Shown here one piece after another: positions 1-28,894 of a DNA stretch of 39,302 nucleotides (positions are counted from its first letter, which is position 1; each line of letters opens with the position of its first letter). Source of the stretch: Aquificota bacterium (lineage in GTDB: Bacteria > Aquificota > Aquificia > Aquificales > Aquificaceae); contig JAUZRJ010000111.1 in the NCBI GenBank assembly GCA_030950545.1, positions 1-39,302 on the forward strand, in the 5' to 3' direction. Below the pieces are notes generated by a model that made no database searches, was not told the DNA's origin, and saw only the letters and a program-made list of their open reading frames with translations. The translations under genes and the position numbers were made by a program.

Positions 1-801
1 GTGAACTGCTCTGCTATACCAGAAAATCTCTTTGAGGCTGAACTTTTCGGTTATGAGAAAGGGGCTTTTACAGGCGCTTCCTCATCCAGAGCAGGCCTTA
101 TCGAAAAAGCGAACCACGGGATACTTTTCCTTGACGAAATAGGAGATATGCCCATAGTAATGCAGCCAAAGATTTTGAGGGTTTTACAGGAGAAGAAAGT
201 CAGAAGGCTTGGTAGCAATCAGGAAATACAGGTTAACTTCAGACTTATATGTGCTACCAACAGAGATCTAAGGAAGCTCATAAGTGAAGGAAAATTCAGA
301 GAAGACTTATACTACAGAATATCTACGATACATATACATCTTCCTCCTCTCAGGGAGAGGAAGGAAGACATTCCCGAGCTTGTAAATTGTATCATCAGAA
401 AAGTCTCGAAGGATTGTGGTAAAACCATAAAAGGTTATACTGAAGGGTTTATAAAAAAAATAATGAACTATCCATGGCCTGGAAATGTACGTGAACTTGA
501 GAATGTTTTGTTAAAAGCGGTGGCACTGAGCAGCAGTGGTATTCTCAGAGAAGAAGACCTCAAGCTAAACTATGAAGAAGAAAACACAACAGGGGACTTT
601 GAAACTTATATACGAAGAGAGGTAAGGAAACTCATTAAGGAAAGTCCAGGTAATGTATACCATAAATTGATTAATATGATTTCAAAAATTATTGTAGAAG
701 AAGGGATAAAAGAAGCTGGTTATAATCAACTGCTTGCATCTAAACTTCTCGGCATAAACAGATTAACTTTAAGAAAAAAACTCAAAGATAGTCTAGGATA
801 A
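1..801 (+). CDS. sigma-54-dependent transcriptional activator (NtrC family), 3' part only
   Basis: This is the C-terminal part of an enhancer-binding protein that uses ATP to open promoters held by sigma-54 RNA polymerase. The first codon, GTG, is the Val of the family's 'VNC' block, not a start; the Walker A motif and any receiver or sensor domain lie upstream of the window. Visible AAA+ features are the sigma-54-contact loop GAFTGA (residues 21-26), Walker B ending in LDE (41-46), sensor I CATNRD, and the block [10 protein letters not shown]. The C-terminus carries a Fis-type helix-turn-helix (about 240-263, [19 protein letters not shown]). It is far more AT-rich than everything after it (hand counts of three lines give 25-40% GC) and favours AAA, ATA and AGA codons, so it may have been acquired. 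Its stop overlaps the convergent EAL gene by 20 bases. The signal it senses cannot be told. Confidence 0.93.
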
Positions 802-3349
802 AATCCTTTAGCTCAGTAAAGTCCAGAGGGGGTGCGAAGTAATATCCCTGACCTTCATCGCAGCTGAGGTCGATAAGTAAGTTTAGATGATCCTCAGTCT
901 CTATACCCTCCGCCAGAGAAACCGCACCTATGGAGTGGGATAAGTCCACAACAGCCTTTACAACTGCTCTCGCTCTATCACTTTCCACCATTGCGGAGAT
1001 GAAAGATCTGTCTATCTTTATCTTGTCCACATCGAACTCTATCAGGTAGTTCATCGAAGAGTATCCGGTCCCGAAGTCGTCTATTGCGACCTTTATGCCT
1101 ATTTCTCTCATAGTCCTCAGTATGGCTTTGGTCCTCTCTGGGTCCTCCATGGCTGTTGTCTCGGTTATCTCGACCACGAAGTTCTCGGGTTTGACCCTGT
1201 AGGCGTCAAGGAGGTCTCGTATTTTTTCGGTCAGGCCTTCCTCGAGGAACTGCTTGGTTGAGAAGTTCACCGCAACGAAAAGGTCCTCAAACCCAAGGGA
1301 GTGGATCCGGGACAGGTCCCTCACAGCCCTTGCGAGAACGCAGTATCCCAGGTCTATTATCTGTCCAGTGTCTTCCGCTATCTGGATAAACCTAGAGGGT
1401 GGGAGGAGTCCGAGGTCCGGGTGGTCCCACCTCACGAGGGCCTCAAAACCGACCAGCTTTTTATCCTTCAGCCTGAAGACAGGCTGATAGAACACCCTTA
1501 TCTGGTCCTTCATAACCGCGTCTTTCAGACCTTCCCTGAGAACAACTATCTCCTTAAGCTCCTTCTCCGCCTCCTTTGAAAACACGACCACGGTGTTAGG
1601 GCCCGTATCCCTCGCCCTGGATAGGGCTATCTCCGCCTTCCTGATCAGGTCCTGGGGATCGCTTCCGTCCCTCGGAAACAGCGCCACACCCATATAGGCG
1701 TCCACCCTGACCCGGGTGCCGTTAACGGAGAAAGGGTCCTGGAAGACAGACCTCACCTTATCCAAGGCCCTGCTCAGACCCCTCATGTCCTTTATGCCGA
1801 GGAGGGCTACCCCGAACTTGTCCGCAAAGAACCTGCTCACCAGGTCTCCCTGTCTGAGACGGGAGGTGAGCCTGTTTCCGAGAACCTTCAGCACCTTGTC
1901 ACCAGCTTCAGGTCCGTAGAGTGTGTTTATCCTGCTGAAGTCCGCGATGTCCACAAGCAGGATACCCGCCATCTCCCCTCTCCTCTGTGAGAAGCTTAGG
2001 ACCTCCCTGAGTTTCTCGACGAACAGGCTCCTGTTGGGAAGGCCTGTTAGCATGTCGTAGTAGGTCGCCTTGAGGATCCTCTCCTCAAACCTCTTCCTGT
2101 CGGTTATGTCCCTTTCGCTCACGACCGCCCCTTCAAGACCTATCTCCTGCCAGTTCTCCGGCAGGAATATGTTTGCTTCCACCCACTTGTAATCACCTGT
2201 TTTTGTCCTCACCCTGAACTCCGCTGTCCTCGGCTTTCCCGGGTAGCTGAAGACCAGGTTCTTCAACCTCTCGACCATGTCCCTGTCCTCCGGGTGGACG
2301 AACTCTGAGAAGTGCCTTCCCACAACCTCCTCGGGTTCCCAGCCGAAGATCTTAAGGGACGAGGGGCTTTTGTACCTTATACCCCCTTCCCTGTCCATTA
2401 TGGCAACCACATCGTGAGAGTGGGTGAGGATAAGCTCGAGCTTGGCTTTCTCCTCCCTCAGCTTCTTTTCCAGCTCCCTCTCCCTGGTCACGTCCACGCC
2501 TACTCCGAGACCCGCATACCCGTCTTCCAGCCTTATGGTGGTTGCGTAAACTTTGAGTAACCTGTAGCTTCCATCTTTGGTCGTCACCGGGACGTCGAGG
2601 TACTCCACGGGTTCCATCCACCCTTTTATCCTCTTCCTGACGTTCTCCCTTATCATCTCCCTGAAATCGGGATGGACCAGGTCCCAGAGGTTCACCTTCC
2701 TGATCTCATCGGGAGAAAACCCGAGAAGCTCTATCGCATAGGGGTTGGCGTAGATAATCTTCTCCCTGTATATGAATATGAGAACGGGTGCGTTCTCCGC
2801 TATCAGCCTGAAGATCCGCCTCTCTCTCTTCAGCTCCTCCGACAGGCGGTCCTTTTCCAGATACTCCGATATCGCAACCGCCACTGCCTTCAGGAACTCA
2901 ACCTCTTCCTCAAAGAACTCCCTGCGGGAGCGTGAGTAAACCGTCAGGACACCCCACAGCCTGCCGAGATGCTGAACGGGAACCGCCATCAGGCTCTTTA
3001 TACCGTAACGGGTCACAACGTCCCTTTCCGAGAACCTGCCCTCAGAACCGAGGTCTTCGGACCTCACAGGTTTTCCCGTCCTTGAGCAGTAGTGGGCGTG
3101 GGTGTTGCCCTTCAGGGTCCTTCTCCCGACCGCCCCTCCCCTCCACCCGAACCCTCCTACCAGGAGGAACCTGTCTCCCTCAGGGTCGTACCGGAAGACA
3201 CCGCACATGTCAACGTCAAGGGCCCTGACGACCTTTTTGCCTATGAAGCGGAGGAAGTTCCTGAAATCCCTGAACCTGAGGAAGCTCCTGAGCAGGTCTA
3301 CAGAAGCGGTCTCCAGCTTCCTCAGCCTGTCCTCCGGGATTCTGGCCAT
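782..3349 (-). CDS. GAF-PAS-PAS-GGDEF-EAL protein, probable c-di-GMP phosphodiesterase
   Basis: An 855-residue cytoplasmic signalling protein with no membrane segment. Order of domains: GAF (about 15-165), PAS (about 180-290), PAS with PAC (about 300-415), GGDEF (about 430-585), EAL (about 605-850). The GGDEF active-site loop is degenerate: the sequence reads RFFADKF near residue 508, lacking the two glycines and the Glu needed for diguanylate cyclase activity. The EAL domain looks intact: EALVRW near 636, VNFS, EITET, DDFGTG near 757, KIDRSF, AEGIE and QGYYF are all present, so c-di-GMP hydrolysis is the expected activity. The GGDEF domain may instead bind GTP and regulate the EAL domain, as in some dual-domain enzymes (inference). 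It lies 34 bases downstream of the PilZ gene on the same strand, pairing a turnover enzyme with a receptor. A TAAAAT hexamer just upstream could give it its own near-leaderless transcript. Confidence 0.93.
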
Positions 3350-3383: not shown

Positions 3384-4463
3384 TTATAAACCCTTCAGCT
3401 CCCTCAGGATCTCGAACTGCCTCTCCATGACGTAGTCGCTCACAACGTCCTCCTGTTTGAGGTCCAGGTCGTACTGGATGCCCACCCTGAACACCCCGTC
3501 CCTCCTGATAACGTAGCGGACCTGTCCCGGGGTGTCCACTTCCCCCTTGGGCAGTCTGAACCTGACCCTAACCGCATCCCCCTCCTTCAGGTCGTCCGGG
3601 TCGTTCACGTACACACCCACGCCCCCGACCGAGACGTCCGCCATGGAGCCTGTAGCCTTCCACCCGTCCTTTTCCAGGAAAACGGGTACAGGGTCCTCAG
3701 GGACAACGCGGACGAACCTCCTCCTCTCCTGAGGCAGATCCGCAAGCCCAAGCACCTTCAGCCTCGCCCTTTCCGACCTGGGGTCTACCTCCTCCACCCT
3801 GACACCCACAGCCCCCGGAAGGTCCCTGACCCTGAGGTAAAGACTCTCTCCCTCCCTGAAGATGTTTAGATCGCACCTCTCAACGGTCAGGTCCCGCTGA
3901 CCCACCTCCACGACCTTTGTCCTGCAGACTACGGGAACCTCCTTGTAGTAGGTGAGGACGTCCACCTCCTCCGCATTCCTGATCAGGTCCATCAGGCCAG
4001 TTACGTCCTCCACAGGCTCTTCCTTTTTCTCCCCCGCCTTCTCCCTTAGCTCCCTCAGGTATCTGCTGTACGCGGTTTCCACCGAACCCATGATCAGGTC
4101 TATGAGATCCAGGAGGTCCTTCACTTTCCTGTGATCGCCTCCCCGTTCCACCGTGTAGTCCACATAGTCGCCGATGAGCCTGAGCAGGCTCTTTGTGAGC
4201 GGACCTCTGATGTCCACCCCGTGGGAGGCTAAGGAGTAAAACAGGTCAGAAACCTCCTCACGGAAATCCGACCTGAAGGAGAATATCACCGAGTAGACCT
4301 TCCTGATCAGAACCCTGAGGGTCTGTGTGTTCATGGGACCGGACCTTTCACTTCCTAGGAAGCTCAGGAAGTTATCCACAAACCTCTCCTTATAGCTGTT
4401 GAAGAACTCCCTCTCCCGGCTGATCCTCCCGAGCAGATCCTCTACTCCGCCCCTCCTGTCCAC
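3384..4463 (-). CDS. PilZ-domain c-di-GMP receptor (YcgR-like layout)
   Basis: A 359-residue soluble protein whose C-terminal third is a PilZ domain that should bind c-di-GMP. Both binding motifs are complete: RxxxR as RRFVR (residues 248-252) and DxSxxG as DVSVGG (276-281). In front of it, about residues 165-245, is a beta-rich segment resembling the YcgR/PilZN-type domain that packs against PilZ. The first 150 residues are helical and charged and I do not recognise them. The target could be flagellar, pilus or envelope machinery; none is encoded nearby. The start is GTG at 4463, supported by a TACAAT hexamer ending six bases upstream and by no Shine-Dalgarno site. The gene is transcribed toward the EAL phosphodiesterase gene and is divergent from the sirtuin gene across only 26 bases. 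Confidence 0.9.
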
Positions 4464-24560: not shown

Positions 24561-25351
24561 CGAGGATAGTGGTCTGCGGTGCCCTGGGAAGGATGGGAAG
24601 GAGGATCGTGGAGATAGCCTCCGAAGACCCCGAGGTGGAAGTCGCTGGAGGCGTTGAGCACCCTGACCGCATACTATCAAGGGATCTGGGGGAAGCCCTC
24701 GGGAGGGAAGACCTGAGAGGTGTCCCCTTGACCTCGAGCCTTGAGGAGGTTATAGGATCCTGCGATGTTATGGTGGAGTTCTCGGGAAACACGACCGCGG
24801 CGGTCTCCCACACCAGGATAGCTTCCCTGGAAGGGAAGGCGTCTGTGGTGGGAACCACGGGCTTCACCGAAGCGGAGCTCAGGGACATAGAGGAGTGCTC
24901 CCGAAAAGCTCCGGTCCTCGTGTCACCCAACATGAGCCTCGGTGTTAACCTCATGTTCAGGCTCGTGGAGATGGCGGGAAAGGTCCTGAAAGGCAGGGGG
25001 TTTGACGTTGAGATCGTTGAGGTCCACCACAGGTTCAAAAAGGACGCTCCGAGCGGAACCGCTGTCAGGATAGCGGATATAGTCAGGAAGGTCATGGGGA
25101 TCGAAAAGGTGGTCCACGGCAGGGAGGGCGTATCCACGAGGGGAACGGACGAGATAGGTGTTATGGCTGTGAGGGGAGGTGACGTTGTGGGGGACCACAC
25201 CGTTTACTTTCTGGGAACGGGTGAGAGGCTGGAGATAACTCACAGGGCTGGGTCCAGGGACACCTTCGCGAGGGGCGCGGTGGAGGCGGCCAAGTGGGTG
25301 AAGGATAAGGGCCCCGGACTTTACTCCATGTTCGACGTTCTGGGTCTATGA
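24557..25351 (+). CDS. dapB: 4-hydroxy-tetrahydrodipicolinate reductase
   Basis: A 264-residue enzyme of the diaminopimelate/lysine pathway that reduces 4-hydroxy-tetrahydrodipicolinate with NAD(P)H. The nucleotide-binding motif GALGRMG (9-15) starts a Rossmann fold, and the catalytic block EVHHRFKKDAPSGTA (about 156-170) with the paired His and Lys is intact. GTTGF supports the substrate-binding loop. The start overlaps the preceding small gene and the stop overlaps mutS2, both as ATGA, so the three are translated from one mRNA. Confidence 0.97.
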   Translation: MTRIVVCGALGRMGRRIVEIASEDPEVEVAGGVEHPDRILSRDLGEALGREDLRGVPLTSSLEEVIGSCDVMVEFSGNTTAAVSHTRIASLEGKASVVGTTGFTEAELRDIEECSRKAPVLVSPNMSLGVNLMFRLVEMAGKVLKGRGFDVEIVEVHHRFKKDAPSGTAVRIADIVRKVMGIEKVVHGREGVSTRGTDEIGVMAVRGGDVVGDHTVYFLGTGERLEITHRAGSRDTFARGAVEAAKWVKDKGPGLYSMFDVLGL

Positions 25352-27612
25352 GGGAAAGGGACTTAGAGAAGCTGGAGTTTAACAGGGTAAAGGAGAAGCT
25401 CAAGGAGTTCGTACACTCCCCCGCCACAGAGGAGGTCGTGGACAGACTGAGACCCATGACCGACCCCGAAGAGGTGAAGAGGTCCATAGAGGTTTTCGAG
25501 AGCTTCAGGAAGGTCGGTGACCTCCCCTTTCATGAGTTCGGAGACATAAGGCCTTCCCTGGAAAAGTCCAAAATAGAAAACGCGGTCCTGAGCGTTGATG
25601 AGATCTTAGAGATCCTGAAAGTCCTCAAGCTGATCAGGGAGGTCAGGAAACATATCGGTAAAGTTTCCGAGGAGGACCCACCCCTGAGGGTTCTTTCCAG
25701 GAAGCTCCACCTGTTCTCCTCCCTTGAGAACCTGATAGAGGGGTGCATAGACAGAAGGGGGTTTGTGAAGGACGAGGCGAGCGAGGATCTTTTCCGCATA
25801 AGAAGGTCCATAAAGGACCTGGAGAGGGAGATAACGGAGAGGCTTGAGAGTCTTCTGAGGAGGCCCGACGCGGATAAGGTCTTTACCGACAGGATAATAA
25901 CCCTGAGGAATAACAGGTACGTGGTTCCCGTGAAAACCTCCCAGATGAAAAAGGTGTTCGGTATAGTCCACGGGACCTCTTCATCCGGCTACACCACCTA
26001 TGTTGAGCCCCACTTCGTTATCCAGCTAAACAACAAGCTAACAGAGCTGAAGGAAAAGGAAGAGGAGGAAGTCAGAAAGGTCCTCGCCAGGATAACAGCT
26101 TACGTGGGCGACTTCGCGGATAAGATCCTGGAGAGCTTCACCGCCTTACTTGAGGCGGACCTGCTGAACGCCAAGAGAAAGCTATCAGAGTCCTACGGGG
26201 GGGTATTTCCCGAGATAGGAGACTTCGTTGACCTCAGGGGTGTCAGACACCCCCTCCTTACCCTGATGAACCCGGACACCGTCCCCGTTGACATAAGGCT
26301 GAGGGAGACCAGAGGAGTGATCCTGACAGGACCCAATACGGGCGGTAAAACCGTAGCCCTGAAAACGCTCGGTCTCGTCACCCTCATGGTCCAGAGCGGG
26401 ATACCCGTTCCCTTAAAGGAGGGAAGCGTTATCAGGGTGTTCAGAAAGGTCTTTGTGGACATAGGGGACGAACAGAGCATAGACCAGAACCTGTCCACCT
26501 TCTCCTCCCACATGACCAACATGGCGGAGTTCTTCAGAGAGGTGGGCCCGGACACGCTCGTTCTCCTGGACGAGCTCGGGGCTGGCACGGACCCCTCTGA
26601 GGGGTCTGCCCTCGGCATCGGCATACTTGAGTTCTTAAAGGGTAAAGGCGCCTGGGTCTTCGCCAACACCCACCACACACCCGTGAAGATCTACGCGGTG
26701 AGGTCCGACTACTACACACCCGCAACCGTTCTCTTTGACCCGGACACTCTCAAGCCCCTTTACAGGATAGTCTACGGGTCCGTGGGTGAGAGCATGGCCC
26801 TCACCGTCGCGAGGAGGTGCGGTGTGCCGGAGGAGATCGTGAAGAACGCGGAGGAGAGAGTCGGGGGCGGGGAGGAGGAGTACAGGGAGGCTGTAAAGAG
26901 GCTTTCGGATCTCGCCAGGGACTACCAGAGGAAGCTTGAAGAGGTAGAGAAGCTTAAGGAAGACCTGAAAAGGGAGAGGGAGAGATACGAAAAGCTCTAC
27001 GAGGAGTACATGGAGTTCAAGAGAAGGGCCTGGAAGGAGGTGTACAGGGAGGCAAGGGGCTTCCTGAGGCGGATCTCGGAAGAGGCAAGGGAGGTTCTCA
27101 AGAGAGCCAAGAGCCTAAAAGAGGTGGAGGAGTTCGTAAGGAGACAGGAGAACCTGCTTAACCTCTTCAGAGGCGGTGAAGCTGACATTAAGGTGGGGGA
27201 CAGAGTTGAGGTCATGGGAAGGGAGGGCAAGGTGGTTGAGATAAAAGGGAACAAAGCGAGGGTTGTTTCCGGGAGCATGAAGATATGGGTGAGCCTGGAC
27301 CTGATCTCGAAGGCGGGGAACGTGAGACGGGAGGTCAAGGAGATCGCTAAGATAACACCCGTCAAAGGGGAGATAAACCTGATCGGTATGGACCCAGAGA
27401 CCGCTATCCTTGAGCTTGAGAGGTTCTTAGAAGAAGCCTACTCCGCAGGTCTCGGTAGCGTTAAGGTCATACACGGTATAGGAAAGGGAGTCCTGAAAAG
27501 GGCGGTCAGGGAGTTTCTCTCGAAGAACGAAAAGGTAAAGTTCTTCAGGGACGCCTATCCGAAGGAGGGCGGATCCGGTGTGACCGTCGTATTCCTCAAG
27601 GCCCCCGAGTGA
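25348..27612 (+). CDS. mutS2: endonuclease MutS2
   Basis: A 754-residue MutS-family ATPase with a C-terminal Smr nuclease domain. The ATPase core holds Walker A GPNTGGKT (about 331-338) and Walker B LLDELGAGTDP (about 407-417), followed by a long coiled coil (about 505-600). The C-terminal Smr domain (about 680-752) contains the HGIGKGVLKRAV block. The N-terminal mismatch-recognition domain of MutS is absent, as expected. MutS2 proteins have been linked to suppression of recombination and, in Bacillus, to rescue of collided ribosomes. The usual DLRG of the Smr domain reads LIGM here, so nuclease activity may be altered. The 3' end overlaps the degenerate EAL gene by 17 bases. Confidence 0.96.
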   Translation: MRERDLEKLEFNRVKEKLKEFVHSPATEEVVDRLRPMTDPEEVKRSIEVFESFRKVGDLPFHEFGDIRPSLEKSKIENAVLSVDEILEILKVLKLIREVRKHIGKVSEEDPPLRVLSRKLHLFSSLENLIEGCIDRRGFVKDEASEDLFRIRRSIKDLEREITERLESLLRRPDADKVFTDRIITLRNNRYVVPVKTSQMKKVFGIVHGTSSSGYTTYVEPHFVIQLNNKLTELKEKEEEEVRKVLARITAYVGDFADKILESFTALLEADLLNAKRKLSESYGGVFPEIGDFVDLRGVRHPLLTLMNPDTVPVDIRLRETRGVILTGPNTGGKTVALKTLGLVTLMVQSGIPVPLKEGSVIRVFRKVFVDIGDEQSIDQNLSTFSSHMTNMAEFFREVGPDTLVLLDELGAGTDPSEGSALGIGILEFLKGKGAWVFANTHHTPVKIYAVRSDYYTPATVLFDPDTLKPLYRIVYGSVGESMALTVARRCGVPEEIVKNAEERVGGGEEEYREAVKRLSDLARDYQRKLEEVEKLKEDLKRERERYEKLYEEYMEFKRRAWKEVYREARGFLRRISEEAREVLKRAKSLKEVEEFVRRQENLLNLFRGGEADIKVGDRVEVMGREGKVVEIKGNKARVVSGSMKIWVSLDLISKAGNVRREVKEIAKITPVKGEINLIGMDPETAILELERFLEEAYSAGLGSVKVIHGIGKGVLKRAVREFLSKNEKVKFFRDAYPKEGGSGVTVVFLKAPE

Positions 27613-28219
27613 GGACCAGCTTTCTCTCCAGCTTACCCTGCCACAGGTTTATACCGAAGGAGATCATCTTCTCGAGGTCCTCCTCCGTCTCCACGTTCTT
27701 CAGTATGACCTGGGATCTTGGAGAGACCTTCTTTATCTCCTCAAAGGCCCAGAGGACAAAGTCAAACCTGTCCTCGGATGCGGACAGGTCTATCTTGACG
27801 TACGCGGGCTGGAGGACCTCTATCCTCTCTATCCTCGACCCTTCCTTTCCGTAATCGTCTACCGATAGGAGAACGTCCCTATCTTGGGCAAACTTCTTTA
27901 TCCTCCTGAGTATGTCAGGGCTCACCACATCCTTCTGTATCTCAAGAACCAGGTTCTTCCTGACAAACTGGACCACGTCGGTGGTGTACTTCACGAGTGT
28001 TGTGGGTTTTATGTTCACAAACACGAGACCCCTCTCAAGGTCCCCCTCCACTATCGCGCTCGCCCCGAGGAACTTGAAGAGGACCAGGTCAGTCTTCTCG
28101 TCAACACCCTTTTGGAGTATGTAGCTGTGGATGCCCAGATCTGGAAAGTACTCGTAGCCTATCCTCCTTCTCTCACCCGTGCCCGTCTCCAGGTATATAC
28201 CTTCCTTTCTTACTTCCAC
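27596..28219 (-). CDS. stand-alone degenerate EAL-domain protein
   Basis: A 207-residue protein that aligns along its length with an EAL domain but lacks the EAL signature. Remaining landmarks are VNIKPT (Asn position kept), LEIQ (Glu kept), VDDYGKEGS in place of [12 protein letters not shown] (Lys kept), LKNVETEEDLE in place of AEGIET (Glu lost) and LWQGK in place of QGYYF. With the first and a later metal-binding Glu missing, it is unlikely to hydrolyse c-di-GMP; it could bind it or act by protein contacts, as YdiV-type proteins do (inference). I take GTG 28219 as start: CATAAT ends seven bases upstream, and further upstream the frame runs through the promoter of the divergent gene. It is alone in its transcription unit. 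Confidence 0.8.
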   Translation of the reverse strand: MEVRKEGIYLETGTGERRRIGYEYFPDLGIHSYILQKGVDEKTDLVLFKFLGASAIVEGDLERGLVFVNIKPTTLVKYTTDVVQFVRKNLVLEIQKDVVSPDILRRIKKFAQDRDVLLSVDDYGKEGSRIERIEVLQPAYVKIDLSASEDRFDFVLWAFEEIKKVSPRSQVILKNVETEEDLEKMISFGINLWQGKLERKLVLTRGP

Positions 28220-28226
28220 CCATAAA

Positions 28227-28232
28227 ATTATG
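28227..28232 (-). promoter_or_regulatory. -10-like element for the degenerate EAL gene (leaderless GTG)
   Basis: CATAAT on the minus strand, seven bases before GTG 28219. There is no Shine-Dalgarno site. Confidence 0.4.
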
Positions 28233-28243
28233 CAGGAAAAAGG

Positions 28244-28249
28244 TATATT
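28244..28249 (+). promoter_or_regulatory. -10-like element for the metallo-hydrolase gene (leaderless)
   Basis: TATATT, then exactly six bases, then ATG 28256. There is no Shine-Dalgarno site. It lies within the 36-base divergent gap. Confidence 0.5.
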
Positions 28250-28255
28250 AACTTT

Positions 28256-28894
28256 ATGAAAATGCTCCTCAAGGTTATACCCGTAGGTCCTCTGGATGTG
28301 AACTGCTCCATAGTAGCTGACCCGTCCACAGGAGAGGCAATAATCGTGGACCCGGGTGCGGAAGGGGAGAGGATAATAGAGGTCGCGAGGGAGTTCAGGG
28401 TAAAGGCTGTGGTCAACACCCACGGACACATAGACCATGTGGGTCAGGTCAGGAAGATAAAAGAGTTTTTCGACGTTCCCTTCTACCTTCACCCCGGGGA
28501 CATACCCCTGATAAGGGACGAGATCTGGCCCGGCTTTGCGACCTACATAAAGGCACAGGAGTGTCCCGAACCAGACGTCCTCCTCGAGGAAGGTATGGAG
28601 ATAAAGGTAGGCGGGATAACTCTGAGAGTCCTGCACACACCGGGACACACACCGGGTCTCTGCTGTCTTTACTCGGAGGAGGAAAAGGTTCTGATAGCGG
28701 GTGACCTCCTCTTTAAGGGGAGCGTCGGGAGGTGGGACCTTCCGGGCGGAGACAGAGAGAAGCTGAAGAAGTCCCTCGAGAGGATCTTCTCCGAGCTTCC
28801 CGACGATACGATCGTCGTTTGCGGACACTACGAGGAGACCACGATAGGCCACGAGAGGAGGTTCAACCCCTATCTCCACGGAGGTCTTCTGTGA
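28256..28894 (+). CDS. metallo-beta-lactamase-fold hydrolase (glyoxalase II-like)
   Basis: A 212-residue soluble hydrolase of the metallo-beta-lactamase superfamily. The metal-binding motif HxHxDH reads HGHIDH (about 57-62), with further ligands in HTPGHTPG, AGDLLF and CGHYEET. Small single-domain proteins like this are commonly annotated as hydroxyacylglutathione hydrolase-like; the true thioester substrate is unknown. In Aquificae-like autotrophs glutathione chemistry is uncertain, so a general thioesterase is as likely (inference). The stop overlaps the start of the ABC ATPase gene as GTGA, so the two are co-translated. Confidence 0.9.
   Translation: MKMLLKVIPVGPLDVNCSIVADPSTGEAIIVDPGAEGERIIEVAREFRVKAVVNTHGHIDHVGQVRKIKEFFDVPFYLHPGDIPLIRDEIWPGFATYIKAQECPEPDVLLEEGMEIKVGGITLRVLHTPGHTPGLCCLYSEEEKVLIAGDLLFKGSVGRWDLPGGDREKLKKSLERIFSELPDDTIVVCGHYEETTIGHERRFNPYLHGGLL

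Follow-up and report, generated by a model that had tools for sequence, protein, structure and literature searches.

How can a small, stand-alone EAL protein with Lys in place of its catalytic Glu be maintained in the chromosome of heat-loving Aquificaceae, and what might it still do there? The question is raised by a gene at positions 27596–28219 (minus strand) of the window, the stretch of 39,302 nucleotides analyzed here, which is contig C15 of a 1.53-Mb Aquificaceae genome (G000). The gene starts with GTG and, as the first-pass annotation had proposed, encodes 207 amino acids. It is supported by a Pfam match, by orthologues in one locus, and by its dN/dS. The open frame extends upstream of the GTG at 28219 (427 amino acids in the ORF list). 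A start in this upstream part was rejected because it is antisense to the MBL-hydrolase gene and the orthologues show protein homology only from the GTG onward. The gene is also correctly described as alone in its unit. It converges on mutS2 (25348–27612, plus strand; TIGR01069, 779 bits) with a tail-to-tail overlap of 17 bp (27596–27612) and diverges from the gene of a GloB-like MBL-fold hydrolase (28256–28894, plus strand). The start codons of the divergent pair are separated by a common intergenic region of 36 bp (28220–28255), which is only about 10 bp in G019 and G022. Promoter and terminator scans of the mini-EAL gene gave nothing clear.

The protein belongs to the EAL family by both profile and predicted structure. 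Pfam EAL (PF00563) matches it with 36 bits against a cut-off of 31.3 (E 6e-9), and with 33.2 bits in a genome-wide search. The AlphaFold2 model has a pLDDT of 78.7 and a pTM of 0.79, and it was built from an alignment of the orthologues and 22 further EAL domains, some from the window and others from viral-contig loci of IMG/VR. From the orthologues alone, the pLDDT is 34. Since canonical EALs are present in the alignment, the fold model depends in part on the family assignment. All 50 matches listed in a Foldseek search against the PDB are EAL proteins, with a best E of 9e-10 and TM-scores (query length) of up to 0.75. Among these 50, the best E-value is that of YkuI. Confidence falls below 50 at model residues 28–38, in the shortened N-terminal lobe. 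Structure prediction had been suggested as a check on the assignment, and the modeled fold is indeed related to that of solved EAL domains.

The landmarks VNIKPT, LEIQ, VDDYG, VKID, and WQGK are all present in the protein. Absence of the EAL motif had also been reported, and this holds in part. The Ala and Leu are changed, but the metal-ligand Glu is kept as Glu23 of IGYEYF (codon 28151–28153, minus strand, as are all codons below). E-A-L thus reads E-Y-F in the window protein and E-Y-H, E-Y-L, or E-Y-R in the orthologues. Glu23 is found at the catalytic Glu position of this motif in all 13 sequences of alignment A1, which comprises the window protein, five close orthologues, and seven distant mini-EALs, and also in alignment A6. 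Profile alignments to VcEAL (6ifq) and YkuI support this register. It is fixed by two relatives with canonical QPI-to-EAL spacing, LEPVVSLRTGKVVAYEVL in G048 and VEPIFDLRDKRLLGYEVL in G053, which serve as intermediates that align IGYEYF to the EAL strand. An early alignment that placed GYEYF on the YYQP strand was rejected, because these family members anchor it on EAL and trimmed sequences agree.

Other active-site positions are kept to different degrees. Asp121-Asp122 of VDDYG (27854–27859), the equivalent of DDFG, Lys142 of VKID (27794–27796), and Gln194 of WQGK (27638–27640), the equivalent of QGY, are invariant in the six orthologues, as is Glu23. Asn69 of VNIKP (28013–28015) and Glu93 of LEI (27941–27943) are at M1 metal-ligand positions. 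The pair is either Asn and Glu or, in G019 and G022, Asp at both. The loss of the AEG-motif Glu is borne out. The stretch reads V-I-L-K174-N-V-E, and Lys174 (27698–27700), at the catalytic-Glu position of AEGVE, is Lys in six of six orthologues. It is encoded by AAG as well as AAA among them, at near-saturated dS. Glu occupies this position in each of the seven distant mini-EALs in A1, as it does in the canonical EAL domains in A6. Furthermore, G014 has Lys in place of Asp144, and Lys, Arg, or Ser takes the place of the loop-6 Glu (E-I-T-E).

In a solved EAL domain, M1 is bound by the EAL Glu, an Asn, an acidic residue, and the first Asp; M2 is coordinated by the second Asp together with another Asp, while the AEG-loop Glu touches M2 or a phosphate depending on the state (PMC5301497; the match of motifs to its numbering is our own). 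When the residue pattern is matched to these published sites, the M1 ligand set is kept and the AEG Glu is lost in all six proteins. EAL domains without the conserved EGVE base are classed as inactive phosphodiesterases (PMC12900916). The window protein has the EAL Glu, the first-metal-site residues, and both Asp residues of DDFG, and lacks the catalytic-base Glu of EGVE. The sequence therefore gives a strong inference that catalysis has been lost. The region between EAL and the Asn is about a dozen residues shorter than the canonical one. In canonical EAL domains, the Arg after EAL (EALxR) helps to hold c-di-GMP. Its position is Asp27 in the window protein and, together with the shortened, low-confidence EAL-to-Asn region, this suggests that the nucleotide site may be altered.

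Several inactive EAL proteins are known, and they differ in how much of the pocket is left. The first-pass annotation compared the window protein to YdiV. YdiV, STM1344, and STM1697 of enterobacteria are catalytically inactive and, like the window protein, consist of a stand-alone EAL fold. However, YdiV has lost eight of ten conserved residues and binds no c-di-GMP (PMC3510510), while the window protein retains nearly all pocket residues, including the M1 ligands, DD, Lys, and Gln. It has not lost most of its catalytic and binding residues as YdiV-type proteins have, and the proposed resemblance is not supported. Instead, sequence and model place YkuI of Bacillus subtilis (PDB 2bas, 2w27) nearer to the window protein. 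YkuI, for which a role as c-di-GMP receptor and an altered metal site are described (PMC11357230), gives the best Foldseek E-value and is also the best single-sequence PDB match. The two have in common an unusual stretch, VD(D/N).GKE.S(N/R)(L/I)(D/E)RI..L.P...KIDL, where the usual form ends in ...P.D..KID, a GYE-V/Y EAL strand, and an altered metal site. The alterations are different. YkuI, with its greater length of about 400 residues, carries Asn at the second DD position and retains the Glu at the AEG position (YEDIE), whereas the window protein has an intact DD and Lys for the Glu. The EAL domains of LapD and FimX are catalysis-dead, as is proposed for the window protein, and LapD binds c-di-GMP and signals via protein contacts. 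These domains, however, are located in multidomain GGDEF-EAL proteins and have lost other residues. YkuI and LapD offer a precedent for an EAL protein that binds c-di-GMP but does not hydrolyze it, and YdiV for the contrary case of a ruined pocket.

The nearest homologues outside the window clade are Aquificaceae EAL proteins of about 200 residues (E 1e-26 to 1e-16), whereas other EAL domains of the host match with E 7e-9 or weaker. These distant mini-EALs retain A-E-K-V-E and the other catalytic residues (A1). The window clade groups with them with UFBoot values of 92 (11 taxa) or 85 (13 taxa), read from node labels corrected for re-rooting, and a FastTree value of 0.95 (13 taxa). Support for this grouping is moderate, and the window clade is placed on a long branch. 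In five genomes (G007, G008, G015, G036, and G048), mini-EALs are found in or near F-type conjugation genes. These proteins have about 28–40% identity to the window protein and carry the signature DD.GK..SN.(D)R and a shortened N-terminal lobe, as the window protein does, but they keep the catalytic Glu, while the window gene encodes Lys and occupies a fixed chromosomal site. The window protein thus has the length, the lobe, and the tree position of an Aquificaceae mini-EAL, and its gene lies outside conjugation genes. Its descent from conjugative-element mini-EALs is moderately supported by these sequence comparisons.

The clearest arrangement is on contig C74 of G007 (L049/L189, 3–1752), where traN, a mini-EAL gene, and trbC follow one another with overlapping start and stop codons. 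In G008, the mini-EAL gene is on one contig with TraE, TraK, TrbI, TraC, and TraU genes and close to a gene for a TraG/TraD-C plus HD protein. A neighboring gene of the same TraG/TraD-C type is found in G036. In G048, TraU and TraN genes are on the mini-EAL contig, and in G015 one mini-EAL is near a TraC gene. G015 carries two different mini-EAL fragments at contig ends (L191 2–364 and L188 2–517), one near TraC and the other beside an apparent RND efflux operon. No tra genes were seen on the short contigs of the relatives from G004 and G016. A possible cyclase partner is encoded divergently from the mini-EAL gene of G004; it is a GGDEF protein that also matches CZB weakly (L048 15–1118). The large proteins encoded at L044 6314–8623 and L050 5226–7493 combine an HD domain with a TraG/TraD C-terminal domain. 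Such proteins are common to elements of two genera (G008 and G048) and represent an unusual coupling-protein architecture. IMG/VR scans for the mini-EAL family itself found nothing, and tblastn against plasmids found only distant, generic EAL domains. Enzymes of c-di-GMP metabolism are already known on conjugative elements, such as SXT/R391. A limited literature search found no description of a dedicated EAL gene inside Aquificaceae F-type transfer operons.

The window gene has five orthologues with 62–86% identity, all in the same locus. Pairwise dN/dS is about 0.05–0.15 where computable, with dS near or beyond saturation, and 95 of the 207 columns are invariant across the six species. The mini-EAL gene is under strong purifying selection. 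A C-terminal stretch, GIxLWQGKLERxL, is strongly conserved among the orthologues. The gene lies between convergent mutS2 and the divergent MBL hydrolase gene in G000, G017, G012, G014, G019, and G022. Beyond the MBL gene are genes for an MlaF-like ABC ATPase and a cyclopropane fatty-acid synthase (some contig ends are incomplete). Most members of the genus do not have the mini-EAL gene. In its absence (e.g., in G009, G010, G020, and G023), the MBL gene directly follows mutS2 on the same strand, 18–48 bp apart. The two lie far from each other in genomes of other genera that are complete or nearly so. In a tree of mutS2 plus MBL, non-carriers separate the carriers into two groups. This distribution can be explained either by an old insertion that was lost several times or by transfer of the segment. 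A check for conserved neighbors, as suggested at first, found no linked partner gene at the loci of the six orthologues. A partnership with mutS2 or the MBL gene was rejected, because they are on the opposite strand and both are present in relatives without the mini-EAL gene. No tra genes were seen at the locus of any orthologue.

The host cell has c-di-GMP signaling, as indicated by about 18 GGDEF, 13 EAL, and 8 PilZ matches in the genome. The best PilZ match of the genome is a protein encoded in the window (3384–4463, minus strand), directly upstream of the gene for a GAF-PAS-GGDEF-EAL protein (782–3349, minus strand). The two are likely to be an enzyme-receptor pair for c-di-GMP. Another EAL match, at 1959–2657 of contig C34 of the same genome, has one internal TAG stop and is perhaps a broken or misassembled GGDEF-EAL gene.

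We lean, with modest confidence, toward the view that the window protein is a catalysis-dead EAL of conjugative-element mini-EAL descent that acts as a non-catalytic receptor or adaptor. The ancestor would be a small EAL with complete catalytic residues from an Aquificaceae F-type conjugation cluster, a copy of which became fixed in the chromosome between mutS2 and the MBL-hydrolase gene. Replacement of the catalytic Glu by Lys174 would have abolished catalysis, while the pocket and the first metal site would be kept. A ligand, which would probably be c-di-GMP or a similar nucleotide, may be held in the pocket with one metal and with Lys174 in the role of the second cation, and once bound to it the protein may contact a partner protein. 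A pseudo-enzyme that still uses its pocket is suggested because the fold and pocket are kept and the base is lost under strong selection. Ligand binding itself is moderately supported by the residue pattern. A simple receptor role is argued against by Asp in place of the EALxR Arg and by the lost loop-6 Glu.

A purely protein-binding role, in which the pocket is empty and the surface binds a regulator as in YdiV, is consistent with a stand-alone protein that has lost the catalytic Glu and the EALxR Arg and has a shortened N-terminal lobe, and with the conserved C-terminal stretch. However, YdiV has lost far more of its conserved residues, and most of the pocket of the window protein is held at near-saturated dS, which would be needless for a surface binder. 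We consider this reading possible but rather doubtful. Because most pocket residues are kept and YkuI is nearer than YdiV, a binding role for the pocket appears at least as likely. The kept M1 ligands, DD, Lys142, and Gln194 could also belong to a phosphodiesterase that is still active, maybe at a low rate or toward a different substrate, in which Lys174 takes over from the second metal or from the base, and metal sites are known to vary among EAL domains (PMC5301497). This is improbable, since published work treats the base Glu as necessary (PMC12900916), G014 has lost D144 as well, and no orthologue retains the loop-6 Glu.

The long branch, the absence of the gene from most of the genus, and the lack of an operon partner might instead indicate a decaying, functionless remnant of a conjugative element. 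This has hardly any probability left. It is already contradicted by the low dN/dS at near-saturated dS, by the number of invariant columns, and by the same site in six species. The Pfam match and model, Lys174, and the selection result together support what was proposed at first, namely a conserved, functional, stand-alone protein with an EAL fold that is very probably non-catalytic, and the preferred reading remains that of a receptor or adaptor.

Catalysis-dead EALs are already known, but the studied examples come largely from Proteobacteria and Bacillus, and in most of them the pocket is ruined or the domain is part of a larger protein. With a minimal dead EAL that has a single fixed catalytic change, and whose nearest relatives look catalytically complete and are carried by conjugative elements, the transition from enzyme to receptor would become directly testable by reciprocal substitution, and this in proteins of harmless thermophiles. 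The traN-EAL-trbC arrangement suggests that c-di-GMP turnover is part of Aquificaceae conjugation. More speculatively, and at rather long odds as a whole, the F-type transfer operons of Aquificaceae conjugative elements may carry a dedicated mini-EAL phosphodiesterase that presumably tunes host c-di-GMP during mating, and one copy, once taken up into the chromosome, may have become a single-metal c-di-GMP sensor of the host when its Glu gave way to a Lys that imitates the second metal.
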